A stretch of DNA of 64,000 nt from Kribbella monticola. Lineage in GTDB: Bacteria > Actinomycetota > Actinomycetes > Propionibacteriales > Kribbellaceae. The translations under genes and the position numbers were made by a program. Shown one piece after another: positions 46,527 to 49,383 of this stretch. Every line of letters begins with the position of its first letter. The first letter of the stretch is position 1. The notes beneath the pieces are model-generated. The model ran no database searches. It was not told where the DNA came from and saw only the letters and a list, made by a program, of their open reading frames with translations. Where the stretch lies: assembly GCF_003261635.1 (NCBI RefSeq), contig NZ_QFXK01000027.1, forward strand, positions 310,001-374,000, read 5' to 3'.

Positions 46527-47711
46527 TATGCGCAGGCGCGGCCGGAGCTCGCGAACCTGCGAGCGGCGATGGACTTCAGCTTCGGTACGGCGGGGGAGGA
46601 GCTGACCGGTCTGCGGATGGTGATTGCCCTGCACTTCTTGTGGTTGTTCTGCGGGCACGCCGCCGAGGGGCGGGTCTGGCTCGAGCGGGCGCTGGAGCTG
46701 AACCCGGAGCCGACCAGGGAGCGTGCCGAAGCGCTGGGCATCATCGCGTACGCGTTGAGCCTGACCGGTCACGCGCCGATGATCTACTCCTACGCCAGGG
46801 AGGCCGAAGCAGTTGCCCATAGCAACGAGGACGAGGATCTACTGGCGCACACGGTGTTCCTGCTCGGCGCCTACTAGTTCATGACCGGCGACATCGAGAA
46901 GTCGCTGCCGCTCTTCCGCGACGCGCTGGCGCGGCTCGAAGCGCTCAATGGAGCAGGCAGCTTCGTACTGCAGCTCTACTCCGCCATTGCTCAGGCAGAG
47001 ATCTGGCAGGGACAGCTGCGCGAGGGGTTGGCGACTGCGAGCCGTGGTCTGGAGCTCTGTGAGGAGACTGGCGAGCAGTATGCGCGCAGTGCGTTGTTGT
47101 TCGCCTGCTCGCTCAGCCGCTGGATGCTGGGGGAGTACAGCGAGGCCGCCGCCGGGTTGACCGAGGCCGTCCGGCTGGCGCGGAGCTTCAACGACGTACT
47201 GGGCGCGGCGACGTGGCTGGAGTTGCTGTGCTGGACGACCGCGGCAATGGGCCGGTTCGAGCGCGCCGCCGTACTGCTTGGAGTCGGGAGCAAGCTCTGG
47301 CAGCTGGGTGGCGGACAGCCGATGCTGGGCTCGCTGTTGATGATCGACGCCCACGAGACCTGCGAACGCAACACCTTGGAGGCGCTCGGCCCTGAGCGCT
47401 ACCAGGCCGCCTTCGACCGCGGTGCGGCTGCCGCCGTCGAGTTCGACCACGCGATCTCGTACGCCGTTGGCAGCGACGCCGGGGTCGCCGAACCGCGTCC
47501 CGCCGCCGCACGACCTGGGTCGCTGAGTGAACGCGAGTACCAGGTCGCCGAACTGGTTGCCCAAGGCCTGACCAACAAGGAGATCGCGCTGCGGCTGGTG
47601 ATCAGCCGGCGGACCGCCGAATCGCATGTCGTCCACATCCTCGACAAGCTCGGCTTCAGCTCCCGCAGTCAGATCGCCACCTGGCTGACAGCTCGTTCTC
47701 AGCGACCGTAG
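46527..47711 (+). pseudogene. Truncated LuxR-type (ATPase/TPR-LuxR) regulator with an in-frame stop
   Basis: One continuous frame encodes the C-terminal half of a large LuxR-family regulator: PELANLRAAMDFSFGTAGEE and TPR-like repeats, then the C-terminal HTH LSEREYQVAELVAQGLTNKE...RTAESHVVHIL. It lacks the N-terminal ATPase and is broken by TAG at 46875-46877 between LLGAY and MTGDIEKS in the same frame. An ATG at 46881 could restart translation of a 276-residue TPR-HTH protein, but no ribosome site is seen. Either a pseudogene or a remnant that still makes a DNA-binding fragment. Confidence 0.8.
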
Positions 47712-47759: not shown

Positions 47760-49124
47760 TCACCAGATGCGGGGGGCCTCGAGGTCGCGGGGGTCGTCGG
47801 CGGGCTGGCAGCCGTGGGTGGATTCTTCGTAGCGGCGGCTCAGACCGTTGGTGGCCAGGGTGCGGACGGCGTTGACGAGGCGATCGACGTGCTCGCGGGT
47901 CGTGGCGAGACCCAGGCTCGCGCGCACCGCAGTACCGTGCTCCGGGGAGTCGGCGAGTAGGTGGCCGACCAGCGGGTGTGCGCAGAACTTGCCGTCGCGT
48001 ACGCCGATGCCGTACTCGGCGGCGAGCGCAGCGGACACCAGCGTCGAGCTGATGCCGTCGACGGTGAAGCAGACCGTGCCGACCCGGTCGGCCTCAACAC
48101 CGAAGATCGAGTACGTCGTTACGCCGGGCAGCTGCGCCAGACCGGTCCGGAGGCGCGCCAGCAGGCTGCGCTCGTGTTGCTCGATCGCCTCGCGGTGCTT
48201 GGTGATCGCCGCACATGCTGCTGCCAGGGCGATCGCACCGATGACGTTGGGAGAGCCGCCCTCGTGCCTTGCGGGGCCTTGGTTCCACACCGTGTCGTTG
48301 CCGTTGACGGCTGCAGTCGCGCCACCGCCGTACAGGTAGGGGTCTGCGGCGTCGAGCCAGTCGGTGCGGCCGATCAACGCGCCCGCGCCGTACGGGGCGT
48401 ACAGCTTGTGGCCGGACAGGGCGACCCAGTCGACGTCGAGCTCTTCGATGTTCACCACGCGGTGCGGCGCCAACTGGGCTGCGTCGAGGCAGGTCCGGGC
48501 ACCATGGGCCCTGGCGACAGCGGCGATCTCTGCGATCGGGAAGATTTCGCCGGTGACGTTGGACGCCCCGGTGACGACGACCAGCCGCGGTCCTTCGGGC
48601 GCGGTGCGCAGTGCGTCGGCGACGGCAGTTACGGCCTGGGTTGTCGAGCTGGGCGCCGCTAGACGAACTGTGCGGTCGGCCGGCCAGGGGAGCAGCGCTG
48701 CGTGGTGCTCCGACTCGAAGACGATCACCGTCGCGTCGGCCGGTACTGCGCGGGCCAGGAGGTTGAGGGCGTCGGTGGTCTGCCGCGTGAAGATGACCTG
48801 ATCGTCCTCGCGGGCGCCGACGAAGCCGTGCACCTCGGCGCGGGCCCGCTCGTACCACTGGGTGGTGATCCGGGACGCGTAGCCGTTGCCGCGATGCACG
48901 GACGCGTACGACGGGAGGGCGGCCTCTACCGCGGCTCGCACCGACTCCAGACAGGGTGCGCTCGCGCCGTGGTCGAAGTTGGCGTAGTCGGTGACGCGGC
49001 CGTCCGCCAGCGGCACCAGCAGATCGGAGCCGACGGTGGCGGGGATGCTGCCGTTGGTCAGCCGCACACTGGCCGGCCGCGCGGCGGTGGCGTTGGCAGG
49101 CTCGAGGATGGAGAGGATCGACAT
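47760..49124 (-). CDS. Class-V aminotransferase (cysteine desulfurase-like), SAM-riboswitch controlled
   Basis: A 454-residue PLP enzyme of the NifS/CsdA fold-type I group. N-terminal DYANFDHGASAPCLESVR, cofactor residues ESEHHAALLPW, DAAQLAPH, and the Schiff-base Lys in VALSGHKLYAPYGAGAL (about residue 225). Related enzymes are cysteine desulfurases, selenocysteine lyases or isopenicillin-epimerase-like. The start at 49124 follows a GGGAG site that comes straight after a SAM-IV riboswitch, so the enzyme is tied to methionine/SAM supply, probably in sulfur transfer. The frame is open upstream through the riboswitch but that is non-coding. Confidence 0.88.
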   Translation of the reverse strand: MSILSILEPANATAARPASVRLTNGSIPATVGSDLLVPLADGRVTDYANFDHGASAPCLESVRAAVEAALPSYASVHRGNGYASRITTQWYERARAEVHGFVGAREDDQVIFTRQTTDALNLLARAVPADATVIVFESEHHAALLPWPADRTVRLAAPSSTTQAVTAVADALRTAPEGPRLVVVTGASNVTGEIFPIAEIAAVARAHGARTCLDAAQLAPHRVVNIEELDVDWVALSGHKLYAPYGAGALIGRTDWLDAADPYLYGGGATAAVNGNDTVWNQGPARHEGGSPNVIGAIALAAACAAITKHREAIEQHERSLLARLRTGLAQLPGVTTYSIFGVEADRVGTVCFTVDGISSTLVSAALAAEYGIGVRDGKFCAHPLVGHLLADSPEHGTAVRASLGLATTREHVDRLVNAVRTLATNGLSRRYEESTHGCQPADDPRDLEAPRIW

Positions 49125-49139
49125 GTTTCTGCTCCCGGT

Positions 49140-49253
49140 GGTCCGCACTTGCCGATCGGGGCATCCGAACGGCCGGGTCCTCACCCGGGGCACCCCACCG
49201 CGGAGGAGGGTTGCCGGCCAGCGAGCCGGGGCTTGACGCTGACACTCATGACC
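49140..49253 (-). promoter_or_regulatory. SAM-IV riboswitch
   Basis: Read on the minus strand, the 114 nt carry the conserved SAM-IV series in order: GGTCATGAGTGTCAGCGTC, AAGCCCCGGC, GCTGGCCGGCAACCCTCC, CGCGGTGGGGTGCCCCGGGTG, GGCAAGTGCGGACC. This matches my memory of the Streptomyces and Mycobacterium examples, including the 3' pseudoknot partner. It ends 15 nt before the start codon, with the Shine-Dalgarno GGGAG directly after, which suggests control of translation (or termination) by S-adenosylmethionine. Confidence 0.93.
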
Positions 49254-49383
49254 TGGCCAAGACCGTAACCAACGAACCATTGCCTGCGCCAGCACCAATC
49301 TCATCTTCTGGGATAGCTGGACACATGTTGAGACGCAACCTGACGGGGCCGTTCTGCGTCCGACCAGCCGGAGGTGGCTCACG

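Follow-up and report, generated by a model that had tools for sequence, protein, structure and literature searches.

Why should a SAM-sensing RNA stand in front of a lone gene for an enzyme that resembles a cysteine desulfurase? The question is raised by a locus of the soil bacterium Kribbella on the reverse strand of a 64-kb stretch of DNA, the whole of which was analysed and is referred to here as the window. The answer proposed, to which a probability of roughly 0.55 is given, is that a SAM-IV riboswitch represses a dedicated class-II (SufS/CsdA-like) desulfurase, which would pass the sulfur of cysteine, or possibly of cysteine sulfinate, to homocysteine by direct sulfhydrylation.

The riboswitch and its leader

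When the whole window was searched against all of Rfam with cmscan a single match was returned, a SAM-IV riboswitch (RF00634) at 49140..49253 on the reverse strand, with an E value of 1.3e-19. An earlier reading made from the letters of the window (the sequence-only reading) had described a full-length SAM-IV aptamer and had proposed a search with the RF00634 covariance model as the check; the match covers positions 1-116 of the 116 in the model and scores 110.9 bits against a gathering cut-off of 38, so that the description is borne out. The genome of 8.0 Mb holds this one SAM-IV riboswitch and also one SAM-I riboswitch.

The RNA is more than a mere sequence match. The pseudoknot PK-2, in which the P3 loop pairs with the 3' tail, is an element of the cryo-EM structure of SAM-IV (PMC6890682) and is present in the window as CCGCG in the loop and UGCGG in the tail, the tail strand lying at 49140..49147 (-). 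Twelve aptamers of related genomes were aligned and scored for the Rfam helices and PK-2: P1, P2, P3, P5 and PK-2 covary, standard pairing being found in 93.6% of cells as opposed to 79.1% when shuffled and at most 47% when slid, and both-sided changes occur in 18 pairs, which include four of the five PK-2 pairs. Single-strand folding without pseudoknots finds the isolated leader no better than its shuffles (z 0.57), which is uninformative because the RNA is pseudoknotted, as expected. One family of relatives (L067, L068, L069 and L071-L074) has the SAM-IV 5' strand GGTCAyGAGyGCCAGC some 60 nt farther upstream than the Rfam alignment places it; in this family P2 apparently contains about 60 inserted nucleotides, and an insertion there would account for the low aptamer scores of 62-68 bits.

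Between the aptamer and the start codon is a spacer of 15 nt (49125..49139, -) with the Shine-Dalgarno sequence GGGAG at 49136-49132, the arrangement that the sequence-only reading had noticed. The spacer is about as short in 21 Kribbella loci, with a GGGAG-type Shine-Dalgarno sequence directly 3' of the PK-2 strand; at 15 nt it is too short to hold a terminator, and a scan of the leader for promoter and terminator consensus sequences found no terminator-like sites. As PK-2 lies only a few nucleotides 5' of the Shine-Dalgarno sequence in Kribbella, the likely mode of switching there is a block of ribosome binding. The spacers of other genera are longer and many include a stem like GGGUCC...GGACCC beside the Shine-Dalgarno sequence; the stem recurs in sequence yet beats shuffles in few loci only. 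That part of this stem could compete with P1 (GGUC/GACC) is offered purely as a suggestion.

The promoter was missed by a sigma-70 consensus scan, and its elements were read from alignments. Just 5' of P1 the Kribbella leaders have a TACsGT -10 element and a CTGGCG -35-like element, which in the window form a probable promoter, CTGGCG-18 nt-TACGGT, at approximately 49262..49292 (-), and most other genera have a TATAxT-like -10 element at an equal distance from P1. Since the placement of the -10 element is shared by Kribbella and most other genera, the transcript probably starts at the aptamer or a few nucleotides before it.

A variant of the palindrome ATCTCA-N5-TGAGAT is found just 5' of the -35 element in the Kribbella leaders examined. 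The copy in the window, at 49298..49314, has one mismatch and, judged by conservation in Kribbella, is a probable operator. With at most one mismatch the palindrome occurs in 17 of 21 Kribbella loci, and outside the Kribbella loci none was found among 1.5 Mb of sampled loci. There are 18 exact copies in 38 Kribbella genomes, 15 of them at the promoter of the enzyme gene and the other three in the interval from ilvD to ilvB, two genes identified by their translations, with the reversed pattern, used as a control, giving 0 copies in the same genomes. It is probable that the palindrome is the operator of a regulator common to the enzyme promoter and the ilvB region, and the two sites imply that this would be a regulator of amino-acid metabolism. 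NdgR was considered for this role and rejected, its published motif GTCCAC..GGAC being different from ATCTCA-N5-TGAGAT.

The enzyme and its pairing with the riboswitch

The gene downstream of the riboswitch (47760..49124, -) runs from an ATG at 49124 to a stop codon at 47762-47760 and encodes a cysteine-desulfurase-like class-V PLP enzyme of 454 aa, which matches PF00266 with 265 bits and has the Schiff-base Lys (K240), stacking His and catalytic Cys (C381) of the superfamily. Its 3' neighbour is a convergent LuxR-type gene that ends at 47711 (+), thus the gene is monocistronic, and, this SAM-IV being the only one in the genome, it is the stand-alone, sole target that the sequence-only reading took it to be. 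H140, H141, D214, Q217, H239, K240, R376, C381 and R401 are invariant in 103 homologues, as is the motif around the cysteine, which is RxGxFCAHP in this branch and HHCA(R/Q)P in SufS. The AlphaFold model (pLDDT 88.6) has a SufS-like fold, with a TMt of 0.84 and 31% identity to SufS.

The enzyme fails to reach the curated cut-off with any of the NCBIfam desulfurase models. With the SufS model TIGR01979 it reaches 267.8 bits against 475.1, and with NF041166, for the cargo desulfurase of family 2A encapsulins, 214 bits against 800 over profile positions 276-623 only; the model for EgtE, the ergothioneine C-S lyase (TIGR04343), gives 44 bits against 400. A separate gene of the same genome scores 507 bits as SufS, although only a partial sequence was scored, and so the identity of the enzyme with the housekeeping SufS was rejected; a further separate gene is of the IscS/NifS type. 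Judged by its residues, the enzyme is a distinct actinobacterial branch that keeps all of the desulfurase catalytic residues, and because these are invariant it is still expected to act as a C-S (or C-Se, or C-sulfinate) lyase. The sequence-only reading had suggested an unassigned step in sulfur or methionine recycling, of which the first part stands, the reaction being unassigned with 268 bits and another gene as the true SufS, whilst recycling is supported by no neighbouring gene. A homologue with 38% identity is carried in a heavy-metal resistance region of pMaqPC1, an alphaproteobacterial plasmid of Methylobacterium aquaticum (L225).

The pairing of riboswitch and gene is widely kept. In a GTDB sample of 80 homologous loci, which includes Kribbella, Actinomadura, Nonomuraea, Streptosporangium and Flexivirga, the covariance model places SAM-IV just 5' of the enzyme gene in 79, and at the remaining locus the available sequence stops 38 bases short of the match. 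All 37 Kribbella genomes in a sample of relatives have the enzyme with an adjoining SAM-IV, and the named relatives whose proteins are 85-88% identical are Kribbella. The record Streptomyces sp. SID13031 (L104) has a Kribbella-type locus, with 88% identity and the same neighbours, and is probably mislabelled. Across a sample of 296 genomes of the class the enzyme is found in 113, of which 105 have SAM-IV and eight have none detected, and the two adjoin in 78 of 80 pairs whose positions were checked. Clustering of gene neighbours gave no universal partner gene, and most loci are without a functional partner. The family of L182 and L183, which is without SAM-IV, has the enzyme gene after one that looks like a LuxAB-like monooxygenase.

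SAM-IV has also been recorded before genes named as cysteine desulfurases or class-V PLP enzymes in S. lividans (SLIV_26975, PMC8079986) and in S. clavuligerus (CRV15_21540, PMC8269248). The pair is real, conserved and of a kind previously recorded in Streptomyces, and the view that the target is an unusual one, which the sequence-only reading had taken, does not survive the 79 loci and these annotated pairings.

A proposed sulfur supply for homocysteine synthesis

If the proposed reading is right, abundant SAM would let the riboswitch repress the enzyme, and when SAM is scarce the enzyme would be made and would take sulfur from cysteine, possibly from cysteine sulfinate, with the freed sulfur going to homocysteine by direct sulfhydrylation. 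In Kribbella the acceptor route may be MetM-MetO, which starts from O-phosphohomoserine and is under SAM-I control, and/or MetY. The SAM-I riboswitch of the Kribbella genome is followed by genes for a ThrC-like protein and a MoaD/ThiS-like sulfur carrier, a layout of the MetM-MetO type, and SAM-I precedes a metM-metO-type pair in four more Kribbella loci; homocysteine synthesis by MetM-MetO was reported by Hasebe et al. 2024, as the account in PMC12172450 cites it. The MetO-like carrier of the window genome (L085:4736-5011) ends in GGC and not GG, so that a trimming step may have to precede its thiocarboxylation. Where relatives possess the enzyme but no MetM, SAM-IV lies ahead of MetY, MetZ or MetX, as curated models show in eight genomes of four families.

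Of the 113 genomes that encode the enzyme 94 also have MetM, compared with 99 of the 183 that do not encode it; this co-occurrence provides no independent test because the genomes are related and their relatedness is uncorrected. A strict coupling of the enzyme to MetM was rejected, as MetM is missing from 19 of the 113 enzyme genomes, in six families, and these, together with the 99 MetM genomes that have no enzyme, indicate that the enzyme is not obligate for MetO.

The contexts taken together, with SAM-I before metM-metO, SAM-IV before MetY, MetZ or MetX, and the dioxygenase-rhodanese and SsuD-like neighbours described below, argue for a SAM-repressed sulfur supply to direct sulfhydrylation, and this comparative evidence points to supply for homocysteine synthesis over recycling. 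Cysteine is most likely the substrate, cysteine sulfinate being the main alternative. It is a good deal more tentative that the SAM-repressed donor loads MetO or otherwise feeds sulfhydrylation so that cystathionine is by-passed, and that Kribbella adds a second, DNA-binding control shared with the ilvB operon. Were the enzyme the donor for MetM-MetO or MetY, it would fill a gap in the flow of sulfur from cysteine to methionine and SAM in many actinobacteria, antibiotic producers among them, and would explain why a SAM-sensing RNA is found on a desulfurase apart from the Fe-S cluster machinery.

The alternative that survives best, although it is an unlikely one, is that the enzyme is a cysteine sulfinate desulfinase which, with cysteine dioxygenase, converts cysteine to sulfite and alanine, the sulfite returning to assimilation. 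Several relatives at the level of the order, all in one family, have the order SAM-IV, enzyme, cysteine dioxygenase (PF05995), rhodanese, and the relative G037 has a separate SAM-IV before cysteine dioxygenase and rhodanese as well as an SsuD-like monooxygenase gene that adjoins the enzyme upstream. We know of no cysteine dioxygenase and rhodanese genes, such as those of G037 L082 and L066-L074, among the listed targets of SAM-IV. In another family a LuxAB-like monooxygenase, known by its N-terminal sequence only, is beside the enzyme, and the PDB names CsdA-type enzymes of the same fold as desulfinases. The dioxygenase-rhodanese operon suits cysteine sulfinate equally well as cysteine; however, the Kribbella homologue of the dioxygenase is unlinked and has no riboswitch, and in most genera the enzyme gene stands by itself.

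Somewhat less probable again is a general extra cysteine desulfurase for tRNA, Moco or thiamin thiolation or for Fe-S repair, with the control by SAM incidental. The SufS-like fold of the predicted model speaks for such a role, and the annotation of S. lividans places the SAM-IV-linked gene in 'thiamine metabolism' (PMC8079986), but the sampled loci have no recurrent neighbouring gene for thiolation or Fe-S functions, the Fe-S supply is covered because separate housekeeping SufS and IscS/NifS-type genes are already in the genome, and the control by SAM is left hard to explain. Some other C-S or C-Se chemistry, that of a selenocysteine lyase or of a lyase for another sulfur amino acid, is improbable, for although the missed NCBIfam cut-offs and the change of motif from HHCA(R/Q)P to FCAHP would allow it, the active-site Cys and Arg are retained in 103 of 103 homologues and the selenocysteine lyase model gives 139 bits against a cut-off of 525.

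Comparison with known systems

As a member of SAM-IV (RF00634) the aptamer is typical in being full length, in its covarying helices and PK-2, and in preceding a sulfur gene, but it differs from those of other genera, which have longer leaders, in the gap of only 15 nt to the start codon in Kribbella. SLIV_26975 and CRV15_21540 offer the closest likeness, SAM-IV before a gene named as a desulfurase or class-V PLP enzyme, the comparison being one of annotation and not of protein sequence; in S. clavuligerus a premature transcript end is found 5' of CRV15_21540 (PMC8269248), whereas Kribbella has no space for a terminator. With the class-II enzymes SufS and CsdA the enzyme shares the fold, the PLP Lys, the His, Asp and Gln, and the active-site Cys and Arg, and it differs from them in an identity of about 31%, in its score of 268 against 475 with the SufS model and in the motif RxGxFCAHP. 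In comparison with the MetM-MetO system, the enzyme is at a separate locus and its role as a donor is conjectural here, yet the Kribbella genome that encodes the enzyme also has a ThrC-like gene paired with a sulfur carrier under a SAM riboswitch.
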